This document shows, in pieces, positions 580-49,341 of a stretch of DNA of 51,796 nt (within the stretch, counting starts at the first letter, position 1; every line of letters begins with the position of its first letter). The position numbers were made by a program, and so were the translations under genes. Below the pieces are notes generated by a model. The model was not told the DNA's origin, did no database searches, and saw nothing but the letters and a program-made list of their open reading frames with translations. The stretch lies in contig PWFS01000062.1 in the NCBI GenBank assembly GCA_003554145.1, positions 1-51,796 on the forward strand, read 5' to 3'. The DNA is from Halobacteroidaceae bacterium. Lineage in GTDB: Bacteria; Bacillota; Halanaerobiia; B1SED10-174.

Positions 580-1113
580 ATGCATTCAACTACGATTATT
601 GCGATAAGAAAAAACGGAAACCTGGCTATTGCTGGTGATGGGCAGGTTACTGTGGGGAATACCATAATGAAAAAAGGGGCCAGCAAAATCCGCCGCTTTT
701 TTGAAGGAGGGGTGGTTGCGGGTTTTGCGGGTGCTTCAGCCGATGCCTTTACCCTTTTTGAAAAATTTGAGGGAAAACTCGAGAGTTATCAGGGAAATTT
801 AAAACGGGCTGCCGTTGAGCTGGCCAAAGAATGGCGTACAGATCGAACCCTGCGCCGACTGGAGGCCCTTTTAATCGTAGCTGATAAAAAAGAGATGTTT
901 ATAATATCTGGAACCGGGGATGTCATAGAACCTGATGACGATATTGCAGCCATAGGATCAGGGGGCCCTTATGCCCTGGCTGCAGCCCGAGCCTTAAGCA
1001 GGTTTGCAACAATGGATGCGGGGGATATTGCCCTGGAAGCCATGCGCATTGCAGCGGATATTTGTATTTATACTAATGATCAAATTGGGGTCGAGGTTGT
1101 GCCCGGGGATTGA
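580..1113 (+). CDS. hslV: ATP-dependent protease subunit HslV (ClpQ)
   Basis: [58 protein letters not shown] motifs. Confidence 0.97.
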
Positions 1114-1230
1114 ACTGTTCAGTCCTGAATAGTTAATAACAATGAAGATCCGGGAACTGTCGATTTTTCCTTTTCCCGGAAAAAATCAATTTTCTGGATT
1201 TCAGAAGATTTTGTTCAAGGAGGTTTGATT

Positions 1231-2619
1231 GTGGAAGATTTGACTCCCCGCCAGACAGTGAATGAACTGGATAAATATATTATCGGGCAGGAACAGGCCA
1301 AAAAAGCGGTGGCCATTGCCCTGCGTAACAGGTACCGGCGGCGTCTTTTGGAAGATGAACTGCGGGATGAAATCCTACCTAAAAATATCCTGATGATTGG
1401 CCCTACCGGGGTGGGAAAAACGGAAATTGCCCGCCGCCTGGCTCGCCTGGTTAAAGCCCCCTTTATTAAAGTGGAGGTCAGCAAATTTACTGAAGTAGGT
1501 TATGTGGGCCGGGATGTGGAATCAATGATTCGTGATCTCCTGGAAACAGCCATCCAAATGGAAAAACAGGAAAAAATAAGAGAAGTAGAGGATAAAGCAG
1601 AGGAACTGGCTGAAGAACGCTTGATGGATTATTTGATGCCAGGACGAAAGAAGTCCAGTAACCCCCTGAATATGTTTTTGAGTTCTTCAGGCCGGGAAGA
1701 AGAAGGAAATGGAGAGGATAATGAAGCCAGGGAAAGAATGAAGTCCAGGCGGGAACGATTGCTGGAAAAACTTCGTTCTGGGGAACTGGAGGAGCCCCCC
1801 ATTGAAATTGAAGTGGAGGCCAGTCATTCCCCCATGCTGGAAATCTTTTCTGGGGCTGGAGTAGAAGAGATGGGCATTAACATGCAGGATCTTTTTGGGG
1901 GGATGTTTCCCCGGAAAAAGAAAAAAAGAAGGGTAAACATCGGGCAGGCCAGAGAAATCCTCAAGCAGCAGGAAGCCCAAAAACTGATTGATATGGATGA
2001 GGTTACTGAAACCGCCCGGGAAAGAGTTCAGGAGAGCGGAATTATCTTCCTGGATGAAATTGATAAAATTACTGGCAAAGATGAAAGTCATGGTCCCGAT
2101 GTATCCCGGGAGGGAGTACAGAGGGATATACTGCCCGTTGTGGAAGGCTCAACGGTAATGACCAAACATGGTCCGGTCAATACTGATCACATCTTATTTA
2201 TAGCTGCCGGGGCTTTTCACATGGCTAAACCTTCCGATTTAATTCCCGAACTGCAGGGGCGCTTCCCCATCAGGGTCGAATTATCCAGTCTCAGTGAGGC
2301 CAATTTCCGGGAAATTTTAACTGAACCTCAGAATGCTTTGATTAAACAGTACGTTGCCCTGCTCCAGGCGGAGGAAGTTGAAATTGAATTTTCGGATGAA
2401 GGAATTGCCCAGCTGGCCCGAATTGCCTTCCTGGCCAATGAACAGATGGAAAATATAGGAGCTCGGCGTCTGCATACCGTTCTGGAGAAATTGCTGGAGG
2501 AAATTTCTTTTGCCGGTCCCGAACTCAAGGGTCAGAAAATAATCATTGATGATGATTTTGTTAAAGATCAGCTGGAGGGGATTATAAAGGATAAAGACCT
2601 TAGCCGATATATTCTTTAA
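1231..2619 (+). CDS. hslU: ATP-dependent protease ATPase subunit HslU (ClpY)
   Basis: [34 protein letters not shown], Walker [24 protein letters not shown] start at 1231 preceded by aaggaggt. Confidence 0.97.
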
Positions 2620-2736
2620 CTGGATAATTTTTGAGCAGACTCTACTAATTTGGGGGATGATTTTTCTCCGTTTAATCTGGATTGAAAAAATAAAAACACC
2701 TTTTTAAGGGTATTTGTTAAAAGGAGGCTGAAAACA

Positions 2737-3519
2737 ATGGAAAACCTATTGCAGAAAACCCGGCAGTTAAACAATCTTTTGCTGGGGGGAGCAGGAAAGG
2801 CAGTTAGTTTTAAAGAAATGGCCAGTGTTTTGAGTGAAGCCATGGATGCCAATGTTTATGTAATCAGCAAAAAAGGGAAAGTCCTGGGCCATCAACTCCT
2901 GGATCAATTTGAATGTGAAAAAATGATGGAAGAAGTGCTGGAAAAAAAACAATTTCCTGCAGATTTTAATGAAAAATTGTTGGGAATAAATGAAACCCGG
3001 GCTAACATCCAGCAGGAAGATGGTAAGTGTGTTTTTGAATTTCAGGGAGACTGTATTTTTACAACCAAGGTAACAACGGTAGTTCCGGTTAAAGGTGCCG
3101 GGGCTCGATTGGGCACCCTTATCCTGGCCAGATTCAGAAACAATTTTGAGGCAGGAGATTTAATTCTGGCCGAATATGCTGCTGCAGTAGTTGGCATGGA
3201 AATACTGCGATCCCGCAGTGAAAAAATGGAGGAAAAAGCCCGGCGTAAGGCCGCAGTACAGATGGCTTTGGACAGCCTTTCTTTTTCGGAAATGGAAGCG
3301 GTGGAGCATATTTTTGCGGAACTGGATCAAAAAGAAGGTTTGATTGTGGCCAGCAAAATTGCCGATGGAGCTGGAATTACCCGGTCAGTAATTGTTAATG
3401 CCCTGCGAAAATTTGAAAGTGCCGGGGTTATCGAGTCCCGGTCCCTGGGAATGAAAGGAACCTACATTAAAGTTTTAAATGAGTTTTTGCTGGAGGAAAT
3501 TGAAAAGATTGATCTTTAG
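2737..3519 (+). CDS. codY: GTP-sensing global transcriptional repressor CodY
   Basis: N-terminal GAF region MENLLQKTRQLNNLL...VSFKEMASVLSEAMDANVYVIS and C-terminal wHTH EGLIVASKIADGAGITRSVIVNALRKFESAGVIESRSLGMKGTYIKVLN; classic position after hslUV. Confidence 0.96.
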   Translation: MENLLQKTRQLNNLLLGGAGKAVSFKEMASVLSEAMDANVYVISKKGKVLGHQLLDQFECEKMMEEVLEKKQFPADFNEKLLGINETRANIQQEDGKCVFEFQGDCIFTTKVTTVVPVKGAGARLGTLILARFRNNFEAGDLILAEYAAAVVGMEILRSRSEKMEEKARRKAAVQMALDSLSFSEMEAVEHIFAELDQKEGLIVASKIADGAGITRSVIVNALRKFESAGVIESRSLGMKGTYIKVLNEFLLEEIEKIDL

Positions 3520-3544
3520 ATATAAAGAGGAAGGAGCAATTTAA

Positions 3545-4189
3545 ATGGTCAATCCAATAGACAAGTTGACTCCTTTTCAAATTGATGCCCTGCGAGAGCT
3601 TGGGAATATTGGGGCGGGTAATACCGCTACCGCTCTGGCCCAGTTTCTGGAAAGAGAAATCCACATGGAAGTCCCTGCTGCTCGCATCCTGCCCCTGGAG
3701 GAAGTGCCCCAGATTATGGGGGTAGAAGAGCGGCGGGTGGGATGCGTACTGCTGCGGATACTCGGAGAAGCTCCGGGGAAAATGGTTTTTTTGATTGAAG
3801 AAGAGTGCCTGCGCCGGTTGTTAACCCTGGTTTTTGGGGAAGAACCTGATGACCTGGAGGGGGAACTGGAAAGGTCTGCCCTCCAGGAAATAGCGAATAT
3901 TCTCTCGGGCTCTTTTCTTAACTCTATTAATAAGATGACCGGTTTAAGTTGCGTACAGTCATTACCCAATTATGCCATGGATATGGCCGAGGCCATCCTT
4001 AGTTCAATTGCTGCTTATCAAGGGCAGTTTGGAGATCACGTTTTATTCCTGGAAACTTCTTTTTCTGAAGGCGATAATCAAATTTTTAGCAAGTTTTTTC
4101 TTATTCCCGAACCAGGAAGTCTGGAGCAGATCCTGGAAGCAATTGGAGCTGAATCTGATGAGCAAGATAATTCCGGTCCGAATGGGTGA
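3545..4189 (+). CDS. cheC: CheY-P phosphatase CheC
   Basis: Two CheC active-site motifs, DALRELGN-x22-P and SALQEIAN-x22-P, both intact. Confidence 0.92.
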   Translation: MVNPIDKLTPFQIDALRELGNIGAGNTATALAQFLEREIHMEVPAARILPLEEVPQIMGVEERRVGCVLLRILGEAPGKMVFLIEEECLRRLLTLVFGEEPDDLEGELERSALQEIANILSGSFLNSINKMTGLSCVQSLPNYAMDMAEAILSSIAAYQGQFGDHVLFLETSFSEGDNQIFSKFFLIPEPGSLEQILEAIGAESDEQDNSGPNG

Positions 4190-4646
4190 ATTAAAAATAG
4201 ATAAAAAACCACAAAAACTGGGGTGTAATGGCCTGGGTTCCTGTATTGGCCTGATAATTTATGATGAGTTCAGGAAAATAGGGGGGCTGGCCCATATAAT
4301 ATTGCCCACAGGAAGAAAAAACGGAAATAATGAACAGAAACCAGGGAAATATGCGGACCTGGCTATTCCCCATTTAATTGAAGAACTGGGGTCAGCGGGA
4401 GCCCATCCACGCCGTTTATGGGCAAAAATGGCCGGGGGAGCCCACATGTTTTCCCTGGAATCAGATAATGATATCAGCCGCATAGGAGAACGCAATATTG
4501 AAGCAGTTCGGGAGATATTAAAACAGTACAAAATACCGGTAAAAGCCATGGATGTGGGAGGGAAATCCGGAAGAACAATTGTTTTTTATCTCAGCTCGGG
4601 AGAGTTAAAAATTAAAACCTTTCAAAAAGGTGAGAAAACATTATAA
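4158..4646 (+). CDS. cheD: Chemoreceptor glutamine deamidase CheD
   Basis: GLGSCIGLIIYDEFRKIGGLAHIILP (Cys and His catalytic region), AKMAGGAHMF, GERNIEAVREILKQYKIPVKAMDVGGKSGRTIVFYLSSGEL; ATG 4158 overlaps the 3' end of cheC. Confidence 0.92.
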   Translation: MSKIIPVRMGELKIDKKPQKLGCNGLGSCIGLIIYDEFRKIGGLAHIILPTGRKNGNNEQKPGKYADLAIPHLIEELGSAGAHPRRLWAKMAGGAHMFSLESDNDISRIGERNIEAVREILKQYKIPVKAMDVGGKSGRTIVFYLSSGELKIKTFQKGEKTL

Positions 4647-4660
4647 AGGTTACCGGGCTA

Positions 4661-4689
4661 TTGATAAATAAGGGCTGCTGTGGTATACT
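4661..4689 (+). promoter_or_regulatory. Predicted sigma-A promoter for rpsB operon (TTGATA-N17-TATACT)
   Basis: -35 ttgata 4661-4666, 17-nt spacer, -10 tatact 4684-4689. Confidence 0.7.
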
Positions 4690-4696
4690 ACCTAAG

Positions 4697-4801
4697 GGTT
4701 AAAAACACATGATCCGCAACTCCAGGGGTGGTGCCCGCCAGGGTTCCCCGGGATGGGGATGACCGGATCAGAGGAAAAACCGAGAGGAGGAAATTTATCA
4801 A
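4697..4801 (+). promoter_or_regulatory. Structured 5' leader of rpsB mRNA (possible r-protein autoregulatory leader)
   Basis: Closing stem tgatccg (4710-4716) / cggatca (4764-4770) enclosing a GC-rich region, directly after the promoter. Confidence 0.45.
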
Positions 4802-5605
4802 ATGGCAGTGGTTACAATGAAACAGCTGCTGGAATCGGGTGTTCACTTCGGACATCAGACCCGGCGGTGGAATCCCAAGATGAAACCCTATATTTTTACC
4901 GAGCGTAACGGGATATACATCGTCGATCTGCAGCAAACGGTTAAAATGGTTGAGGTGGCCCATAATTTTGTGCGGGACCTGGCCATGGAGGGTAAGGAAG
5001 TTCTTTTCGTGGGAACCAAGAAGCAAGCCCAGGAAACAGTAAAAAAAGAAGCGGAAAGATGTGGCATGCCCTATGTAAATCAGCGCTGGCTGGGGGGGAT
5101 GCTGACCAACTTTGCCACAATAAGTAAACGGATCCGTCGGCTGGAGGAACTGGAAAAAATGGATGAGGAGGGACTGTTTGAAGTCCTCCCTAAGAAAGAA
5201 GTAATTCAACTGCAAAAAGAAAAAGAACGCCTGAACCGTTTCCTGGGAGGAATTCGCCACATGAAAAGGTTACCCCATGCGGTTTACGTGGTGGACCCCC
5301 GCAAGGAAAGTATTGCAGTTGCTGAAGCAAATAAGCTGGGAATCCCGGTGGTTGCAATTGTTGACACTAACTGTGACCCCGATGTAATTGATTATATTAT
5401 TCCGGGTAATGATGATGCTATTCGAGCAGTTAAGCTCTTAACTGGAGTAATGGCTGATGCTGTATTAGAGGGTAATCAAGGGCGGGAAGTTCAAATGCCC
5501 GAAACCGATGAAGAAGTAGAAGCCGGAGAAGAGAGCTCTGTGGAGGGTGAAAAGGACCTGGAAGAGTTAAAAAAAGAAACTAATGAACAGGAAAAAGCTG
5601 AATAA
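4802..5605 (+). CDS. rpsB: 30S ribosomal protein S2
   Basis: [45 protein letters not shown]; acidic C-terminal tail. Confidence 0.98.
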
Positions 5606-5620
5606 GGGGGGGGAATTTAA

Positions 5621-6220
5621 GTGGCAATTACCATGGAAACCGTAAAAAAACTTCGTCAGAAAACCGGGGCCGGGGTTATGGATTGCAAAAAGGCCCTGCA
5701 GGAAACCGGTGGCGATATAGATAAAGCTGTGGAGTACCTGAGGGAAAAAGGTATTGCTGCGGCTGAAAAGAAAGCGGGGCGAACTGCGGCTGAAGGATTG
5801 GTGGGCTCCTATATTCACATGGGTGGGAAAATTGGAGTTCTAATTGAAGTTAACTGTGAAACGGATTTCGTTGCCAAGACTGAAGAATTCAAGGCTCTGG
5901 TCCATAATCTGGCCATGCAGGTTGCTGCCAGCCAGCCTGATTATGTTTCCCGGGAAGACATTCCTGGGGAAATAATTGATAGGGAAAAAAGTATCCTCCG
6001 TCAGCAGGCGCTGGAAGAAAACAAACCGGAACATGTTATAGAGAAAATGGTAGAGGGCAGGCTGGAAAAGTTTTTTGAAAACGTCTGCTTGCTGGAACAG
6101 CCCTTTATCAAAGATACTGATCAAAAGGTCAGGGAACTTTTAAAAGAAAATATAGCTCAACTGGGTGAGAACATTGTGATCAACCGCTTTTCCCGCTTTG
6201 CGGTGGGGGAAGAGGAATAG
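5621..6220 (+). CDS. tsf: Elongation factor Ts (short form)
   Basis: [52 protein letters not shown]. Confidence 0.98.
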
Positions 6221-6231
6221 TAAAAGATTTA

Positions 6232-6260
6232 AGAGAGCACCTCTGGTGTTCTCTTTTTTT
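6232..6260 (+). terminator. Rho-independent terminator after tsf
   Basis: agagagcacc-tct-ggtgttctct followed by T-run. Confidence 0.85.
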
Positions 6261-6310
6261 GCAGGATTATGCTATTAAAAGGCGAAAAAAAATAAAATGG
6301 GGGACAGTTT

Positions 6311-7027
6311 ATGGCTAAAGCGCTTTTTTCCAGGGTTATTTTGAAGCTGAGCGGGGAGGCCCTGGCGGGAGAACAGGAATTTGGGATTGATGCCCGGTAT
6401 ATCAGTCTGATAGCCGGGGAGATAAGGAAGACTGTACGTGAAACCGGTGTTGAAATTGCTATTGTAGTTGGTGGGGGGAATATTTTCCGTGGTCTCGCCG
6501 GTAGTGCGGAAGGGATGGATCGGAGCACTGCTGATTATATGGGAATGCTGGCCACGGTAATCAATGGCCTGGCCCTGCAGGATGCACTGGAACATGAAGG
6601 ATTGCAAACCCGGCTGCAGACTGCAGTGGAAATGAGGCAAATTGCTGAACCTTATATCAGACGCCGGGCAATCAGACACCTGGAAAAGGGTAGAATTGTA
6701 ATCTTTTCCGGAGGGACGGGAAATCCCTTTTTCTCGACCGATACAACAGCTGCCCTGCGAGCTGCTGAAATTGGGGCCGATGCAATTTTAATGGCAAAAA
6801 AGGTTGATGGAGTGTACGATTCAGATCCGGTCAGCAATCCCGAGGCAACCAGGTATACAGAACTCACCTATATGGATGTAATAAAGAAATCCCTGCGAGT
6901 AATGGATTCTACAGCAGTTTCGCTCTGTATGGATAATGAAATTCCCCTTATAGTTTTTGGACTTGCCGATCTGGACAATATTAAGCGGGCGGTGATGGGC
7001 GAAAAAATTGGAACTTCTGTTTCCTAA
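6311..7027 (+). CDS. pyrH: UMP kinase
   Basis: [48 protein letters not shown]. Confidence 0.98.
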
Positions 7028-48008: not shown

Positions 48009-48095
48009 GAATTAGCCGGGGAAATAGTTTACAAAGTAAGAATTCCCCCTGGTATTTATCTATTTGGGGCTATGGACACAACAGGAGGGGTGGAA

Positions 48096-48485
48096 TTGGC
48101 CAAAAAGGATTTTAAAATTCTGTATTGTGATGATTCTTTGCTGGTTCGTAAACAGCTAAAGGAAATTTTGAACCAGGAGGGCTACACAAACCTTATAGAA
48201 GCCGCAGATGGTGAAGAAGTCGTAAAGAAGTACCAAAGCGAAAACCCTGATCTTGTTTTCTGTGATATTGTTATGCCTCGTCTGGATGGGTTGGAAGCTT
48301 TAAACAGGATTAAAGCCCGGGATCAGTCTGCCCGGATAGTAATGATTTCAACATCGGGGACCAGAGCTAACCTGATCAGGGCCCTGGATGAGGGAGCGGT
48401 GGATTTTGTGCAAAAACCCTTAAATCCGGAAAGGGTAAAAAAAATTGTTGCTCGGGAAATCAAAGGAGGCAGGGGCCTTGTTTAG
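48096..48485 (+). CDS. CheY-like single-domain response regulator (TTG 48096 likely start; ATG 48072 in frame)
   Basis: ILYCDDSLLVRK, DLVFCDIVMPRLDGLEAL, IVMISTSG, DFVQKPLN. Confidence 0.92.
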   Translation: MAKKDFKILYCDDSLLVRKQLKEILNQEGYTNLIEAADGEEVVKKYQSENPDLVFCDIVMPRLDGLEALNRIKARDQSARIVMISTSGTRANLIRALDEGAVDFVQKPLNPERVKKIVAREIKGGRGLV

Positions 48486-49341
48486 TCAATACCTGGGGAG
48501 CTATCTTTTGCGCAGGGAATTAATTTCTGCGGAAGAGCTGGGCTCATTATTAAAAAAGGAAAAAGAGCACCGAATAAAGCTGGGAGTTCTGGCCATTGAC
48601 CGGGGCTATATGACTGTAGATCAGGTTGAGGAGATCCATGCCCAGCAGAAAAAAATTGATCGCAGATTCGGAGAACTGGCAATAGATAAGGGTTATCTTA
48701 CTTCTTCAGCCCTGGAAAAATTGTTAACTGAACAGAAGGAGGCCCATGTTTCCCTGAGTGAGATTCTGTTGGATGAAGGATATTTTTCCCTGGCAGAAAT
48801 AGAAAAAATTGTTCGGGAGTACAAAGAGGATGCGGGCATATCTGATAGAGATATCAGAAGTTTACAGGAAGGCGATGTAGCAATTGCTGTTGATAGGTTA
48901 GTGGAGTTTAATAAAGCAGATGAGTTTTTTCGAAATTATGTCATCCTGTTTTTACGGAATTTAATCCGATTTGTTGACCCTCGCTCCCGAATTTTGAGTT
49001 CCCAGGAAAAAATAGAGATCCCCAAGGGGCTTGTTATTGAACAGGCAATCCGGGGAGAAGTTGATATTAATACTGCTGTAATGATTGATAGCAGGGATGC
49101 GGGTGAAATAGCTTCTCGTTTTAGCCGCCGGGATATTTCTTCTCCCGATCCCCTGATTTCGGAAACACTTAAAGAGCTTTTGAACCTACATAACGGGTTG
49201 TTTGCGGTTAATCTATCCAACCAAGGTGTTGAAGTTAATCTTAACCCTCCCGAGATTGCCCAGCAGGCCCCCTATAAATTTAGTGAGGAAATTGAGTTTC
49301 GAACCTCGGTGGGGGATATTAAGTTATTCCTTGGAAGCTGA
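48478..49341 (+). CDS. Four MshEN/GspE-N-like 29-residue repeats fused to a CheX/CheC-like phosphatase domain
   Basis: TTG 48478 with aaaggaggc SD; repeats begin at residues 5, 34, 63, 92; C-terminal ETLKELLNLHNGLFAVNLSNQGVEVNLNPPEI resembles the CheC/CheX E-x2-N...P signature. Confidence 0.7.
   Translation: MFSQYLGSYLLRRELISAEELGSLLKKEKEHRIKLGVLAIDRGYMTVDQVEEIHAQQKKIDRRFGELAIDKGYLTSSALEKLLTEQKEAHVSLSEILLDEGYFSLAEIEKIVREYKEDAGISDRDIRSLQEGDVAIAVDRLVEFNKADEFFRNYVILFLRNLIRFVDPRSRILSSQEKIEIPKGLVIEQAIRGEVDINTAVMIDSRDAGEIASRFSRRDISSPDPLISETLKELLNLHNGLFAVNLSNQGVEVNLNPPEIAQQAPYKFSEEIEFRTSVGDIKLFLGS

Follow-up and report, generated by a model that had tools for sequence, protein, structure and literature searches.

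A cheY gene paired with a gene for a CheX-type protein that carries a predicted c-di-GMP receptor: a conserved module of the Bacillota

Results

The window analysed here, a stretch of 51,796 nucleotides from a Halobacteroidaceae bacterium, contains a gene for a single-domain response regulator, cheY, followed by a gene for a protein in which an array of MshEN-like motifs precedes a CheX domain (the MshEN-CheX protein, Table 1). Both genes use TTG as start codon and they overlap by 8 nt (48478-48485). The start at TTG 48478 and the overlap with cheY had been part of the original prediction from the sequence and are supported by the AGGAGG found before both starts. The identities of the domains in the MshEN-CheX protein can be regarded as close to certain.

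Table 1. Features of the cheY/MshEN-CheX gene pair, given as positions in the window.
Feature	Position	Strand	Remarks
cheY Shine-Dalgarno AGGAGG	48083..48088	+	7 nt before TTG 48096; sequence
cheY, single-domain response regulator, 129 aa	48096..48485	+	PF00072, E 3.1e-30
MshEN-CheX gene Shine-Dalgarno AGGAGG	48464..48469	+	8 nt before TTG 48478; sequence
MshEN-CheX protein, 287 aa	48478..49341	+	overlaps cheY; full-length homologues in other genomes
Motif 1, residues 5-28	48490..48561	+	degenerate: Tyr/Phe at position 1, Gln in only 55/96
Motifs 2+3, residues 34-86	48577..48735	+	predicted c-di-GMP site; MshE alignment and contact residues
Motif 4, residues 92-115	48751..48822	+	degenerate: Gln replaced by Tyr/Phe in 95/96
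CheX domain, about residues 149-287	48922..49338	+	PF13690, E 2e-4 (C-terminal half); fold matches
Catalytic pair E233-x-x-N236	49174..49185	+	conservation; alignment with Borrelia CheX

The N-terminus of the MshEN-CheX protein consists of four 24-residue motifs that begin at residues 5, 34, 63 and 92 and repeat with a period of exactly 29 residues. When the N-terminal 130 residues were shuffled 20,000 times, no shuffle scored as high as the best tandem pair, which starts at residue 34, or as high as the four-motif array, which bears out the motif positions and the period as originally predicted. The MshEN-like character of the repeats, also part of that prediction, received support from two sides: the NCBIfam model NF053729 (‘c-di-GMP_motif, MshE-related’) matches the array with an E-value of 3.4e-18 and 65.2 bits at a cut-off of 38, and the 11 PDB entries whose fold matches the N-terminus best belong to MshE and the GSPII-B domain of PilF, with the non-binding GSPII-A domain ranking far lower. 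The Pfam MshEN model PF05157, however, gave no hmmscan match to the MshEN-CheX protein at E-values up to 10. This model spans 90 positions, and the absent MshEN_C part may explain the miss. Since the Foldseek E-values for the short helical N-terminus are weak (best 0.05, at a probability of 1.00), the MshEN assignment rests on sequence evidence. Pfam hits to FumaraseC_C and DUF4388 stayed under the cut-off and were taken as cross-hits of helical repeats.

In MshE, each of two motifs contacts c-di-GMP through its initial Arg, its Gly and its final Gln, and Leu clusters contribute further contacts (PMC5013675). Motif 2 (residues 34-57) and motif 3 (residues 63-86), which are separated by a spacer of 5 residues, provide K34, G36, Q57, R63, G65 and Q86 at these contact positions. 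Contacts of the type Arg/Lys/Leu, Gly and Gln in both motifs of a pair were found for motifs 2+3 in 91 of 96 homologues, for motifs 1+2 in 2 and for motifs 3+4 in none. Across the 75 N-termini that were compared, M1, G36, Q57, D61 and G65 are invariant, and K34 and Q86 nearly so. An alignment of the family profile with the MshE crystal structure 5htl (E 1.1e-6) covered profile positions 30-96, which correspond to motifs 2 and 3. Because the contacts are kept only in this pair and the alignment with MshE falls there as well, we infer a single c-di-GMP site, which probably lies in the middle of the array. A reading of the four motifs as two c-di-GMP sites (1+2 and 3+4) was rejected: these pairs are without the contact residues in nearly all of the 96 homologues, and only motifs 2 and 3 are canonical.

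The Leu cluster of motif 3 is formed by L79 and L83. Its equivalents in motif 2 are V50, a Val in place of MshE Leu25, and H54, which occupies the position of MshE Leu29, the residue that stacks on guanine (PMC5013675). This position is taken by His in 78 and by Asn in 14 of the 96 homologues; its family-wide replacement is the main doubt over c-di-GMP binding. The motif 2 signature QVExIHxxQ, found in the window at 48635-48642 (the region of residue 54) and in the homologues, carries this His/Asn. In PilF GSPII-B a Lys at motif position 1 accompanied tighter, not weaker, binding (PMC11731258). A further point against binding is that in PilF GSPII-A the consensus motifs were restored, yet no binding resulted from those alone (PMC12002112).

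Judged by the conserved contact residues, the MshEN array is likely to bind c-di-GMP. It could alternatively serve for docking or oligomerisation without binding c-di-GMP, in which case the CheX domain would still be a real phosphatase for the adjacent CheY. MshEN folds without binding do exist, namely XpsE and PilF GSPII-A (PMC5013675, PMC12002112), and both the His/Asn at the Leu29 position and the loss of the motif in two homologues whose genomes retain GGDEF proteins would be in agreement with such a role. Docking alone, however, hardly explains why the ligand contacts are the most conserved residues of the N-terminus (91/96) while the equivalent positions in motifs 1 and 4 vary freely, such that we consider this alternative unlikely.

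The two homologues without the motif, L025 and L026, belong to one family (f40); the residues of the c-di-GMP motif are gone in both, but the adjacent CheY and the E-x-x-N pair are retained. Their genomes have 15-17 GGDEF hits each, by which a loss of GGDEF proteins was rejected as the cause of the motif decay. With GGDEF proteins this numerous, the module can work there without the site, which makes L025 and L026 natural candidates for a non-binding variant.

The C-terminal half had been described as CheC/CheX-like due to an ELLN...PP region. Both segments are present (ELLN at residues 233-236, NPP at 257-259), and the description is supported by a CheX fold in which the catalytic acid and Asn are both present. 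PF13690 scored 21.8 bits on the C-terminal half of the MshEN-CheX protein, which is under its gathering cut-off of 27; for 12 of 16 family members the CheX Pfam model matches at E-values up to 0.01, with a best E-value of 8.5e-12. An AlphaFold2 model of the whole MshEN-CheX protein reached a mean pLDDT of 79.9 and a pTM of 0.58, a value that supports no claim on the packing of the N- and C-terminal halves. Each of the 13 best PDB matches of the model is a CheX or CheX/CheC-like structure (E 1.5e-7 to 8.5e-6), among them the Borrelia CheX-CheY-BeF3 complex with an E-value of 4.3e-7. During catalysis, CheX uses its Asn to orient the water and its acidic residue to pair with the Lys of the receiver (PMC3035606). 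The E233/N236 pair lines up with Borrelia CheX in the profile alignment, and Glu or Asp at 233 together with Asn at 236 is found in 95 of 96 homologues. From these residues it appears probable that the MshEN-CheX protein is a CheY-P phosphatase for the neighbouring CheY.

The cheY product itself keeps the positions of the Asp/Asp pocket, the phospho-Asp (CDIVMP), the Ser and the Lys (QKP). A receiver gene on the same strand and at most 150 nt from the MshEN-CheX gene was found at 93 of 96 loci (80 upstream, 13 downstream), of which 80 are the best matches of one scan and 15 come from an even phylum sample; within the even phylum sample only, a receiver gene adjoins at 13 of 15 loci. The genome search for the same fusion beside cheY that had been suggested with the original prediction thus found this arrangement widely. 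A comparison across 94 neighbouring receivers showed that the active-site residues are kept. The upstream partners form a separate CheY class in which DDS and QKP are invariant; the downstream partners look closer to the two CheA-linked CheYs of the present genome. The downstream arrangement is confined to one clade of the tree, which also holds the two homologues that lack a receiver gene next to them. In Lachnospira eligens, MshEN, CheX-like and receiver parts are joined in one 435-aa protein (WP_012740644.1) with the receiver at the C-terminal end. It is annotated as ‘response regulator’ and encoded on a 627-kb replicon (L114:4001-5305). The association with receivers in two gene orders and one fusion provides the best evidence for CheY as the substrate. 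The proposal of a two-gene module with CheY is therefore strengthened by a conserved pair, a phosphorylatable CheY and a natural CheX-receiver fusion.

Signal flow in the reverse direction would be another way to explain this pairing: the CheX domain would mainly read CheY-P, the binding of which would control how the MshEN array binds c-di-GMP or interacts with a partner, with the output given via MshEN rather than via CheY dephosphorylation. The partner CheY differs from both CheA-linked CheYs of the genome (36% identical) and has no known target. Furthermore, readers with a CheX/CheC fold exist, since CheY-P binding to CheC strengthens the CheC-CheD interaction of Bacillus subtilis (PMC3513319). 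A pure reader would, however, not need the two catalytic residues that are both kept in 95 of 96 homologues, which renders the reverse flow improbable compared to a phosphatase acting on CheY-P.

At least three proteins of the source genome are CheY-like. Its one CheA gene lies on another contig (L109, G000:C27, positions 3547-6327) and is followed by two genes for single-domain CheYs, each only about 36% identical to the CheY of the window. FliM is present as well, adjoined by a FliM/CheX-domain protein that is probably FliY. In the window, a CheC gene at 3545-4189 (PF04509, E 4e-22) is followed by a CheD gene (PF03975, E 1e-35). Both belong to the gene row hslV, hslU, codY, CheC, CheD and rpsB at 580-5605, the site of the fla/che operon in Bacillus subtilis, here reduced to cheC-cheD. 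With CheA and its CheYs, CheC and a FliY-like protein located elsewhere, the module adds a further phosphatase-like protein, together with a CheY of its own, apart from the main che genes.

GGDEF proteins are represented by 16 hits in the source genome. Among the further module-carrying genomes that we checked, GGDEF proteins occur in 14 of 14, CheA in 14 of 14 and FliM in 13 of 14. The latter number is not informative about an enrichment of flagella, given that FliM occurs in 325 of the 398 genomes (82%) of the phylum sample. In one genome of 99% completeness (L021, G384), which has the module and CheA, FliM was not matched; CheY may act there on something other than a flagellar motor. Binding of another dinucleotide such as cGAMP in place of c-di-GMP is very improbable: although cGAMP is bound weakly by MshEN (PMC5013675) and the position of the guanine-stacking Leu29 of MshE is His/Asn in 92 of 96 homologues, both Gly that give guanine-specific backbone contacts are kept, and GGDEF proteins are encoded in all 15 genomes examined.

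Besides the source genome, 14 of 398 phylum-sampled genomes contain full-length homologues, and a scan of one-genome-per-species contigs yielded at least 475 confirmed relatives. The MshEN-CheX family is widespread in the Bacillota (Firmicutes) and extends to the Desulfovibrionaceae. Three homologues from the Desulfovibrionaceae (Thermodesulfobacteriota; L065, L066 and L070), which have CheY downstream, lie inside the Bacillota tree; this nesting suggests transfer between phyla. The nearest named sequences to the MshEN-CheX protein of the window are about 40% identical and come from Sporomusa and Clostridia. The module is absent from four genomes of the same genus, one other genome of the same family and all remaining genomes of the class sample, where only short repeat matches were obtained, and is thus sporadic in these groups. 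In the tree the module of the window sits on a long branch, to which long-branch warnings apply. Its presence in the source genome may possibly be a horizontal gain or a relic.

Discussion

The N-terminal array resembles the MshEN domain of MshE from Vibrio cholerae and the GSPII-B domain of PilF from Thermus thermophilus. With these it shares two 24-residue motifs with a 5-residue spacer, Arg/Lys, LG or FG, Gly and Gln at the contact positions and a fold that matches within 0.8-2.0 Å over 56-61 columns. Unlike in MshE and PilF, the motifs are part of a four-motif array that has no alpha/beta MshEN_C subdomain, has His/Asn at the Leu29 position and is fused to CheX rather than to an ATPase. 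The CheX domain in turn shares its fold and the catalytic acid-x-x-Asn with the CheX phosphatases of Thermotoga maritima (1xko) and Borrelia burgdorferi (3hzh), from which the protein differs by the N-terminal MshEN array and by an identity of 14-20% in the fold alignments. An enzyme with an attached MshEN for which allosteric control was proposed is also known in the glycosyltransferase NfrB of Escherichia coli (PMC8669469). NfrB controls polysaccharide synthesis, whereas we propose response-regulator dephosphorylation for the module described here.

The combination of MshEN with CheX has been noted before: one sentence in Wang et al. 2016, which points to a supplementary table and figure, includes CheX among the domains that occur together with MshEN (PMC5013675). 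For this combination, the main text of that paper does not say which genes lie nearby, how many sites there are or what the function is. In the openly licensed main texts that we searched, we found no description of a conserved module with CheY, of a single c-di-GMP site, of a fusion to a receiver or of the proposed regulation. Nor did these texts yield any functional work on the module or on c-di-GMP-gated CheY-P dephosphorylation, in line with the original statement that no c-di-GMP-gated CheX has been characterised.

The computational analysis identifies the domains, shows that the residues of the predicted sites are conserved and finds a receiver gene as a conserved neighbour. We infer, in the following model, that the ligand is bound, that the CheX domain is catalytic and that binding affects catalysis in one direction or the other. 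The module would consist of a CheY-type response regulator and a dedicated CheY-P phosphatase carrying a c-di-GMP receptor. Motifs 2 and 3 would bind one c-di-GMP, while motifs 1 and 4 would complete the helical array and probably relay the change to the CheX domain. The latter would insert N236, positioning the attacking water, and E233, pairing with the active-site Lys of CheY, into CheY-P and remove the phosphate. By altering the phosphatase rate, c-di-GMP would let its cellular level reset the level of CheY-P and the output of that CheY, which may be directed at the flagellar motor, a type IV pilus or another target. Gating of CheY-P dephosphorylation by c-di-GMP through the MshEN-CheX protein appears moderately likely to us from the features of the protein and its homologues. 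For the more general idea of widespread second-messenger-gated response-regulator phosphatases, in which c-di-GMP would directly switch CheY-P dephosphorylation via a CheX enzyme, we see the case as evenly balanced.

Known routes by which c-di-GMP reaches motility are PilZ brakes, transcription and riboswitches. If the model is true, c-di-GMP would meet chemotaxis-type signalling at the turnover of the CheY phosphate instead of at the level of the motor or of gene expression. A phosphatase with its own c-di-GMP receptor, encoded beside its CheY, would then be a direct biochemical junction of both networks.
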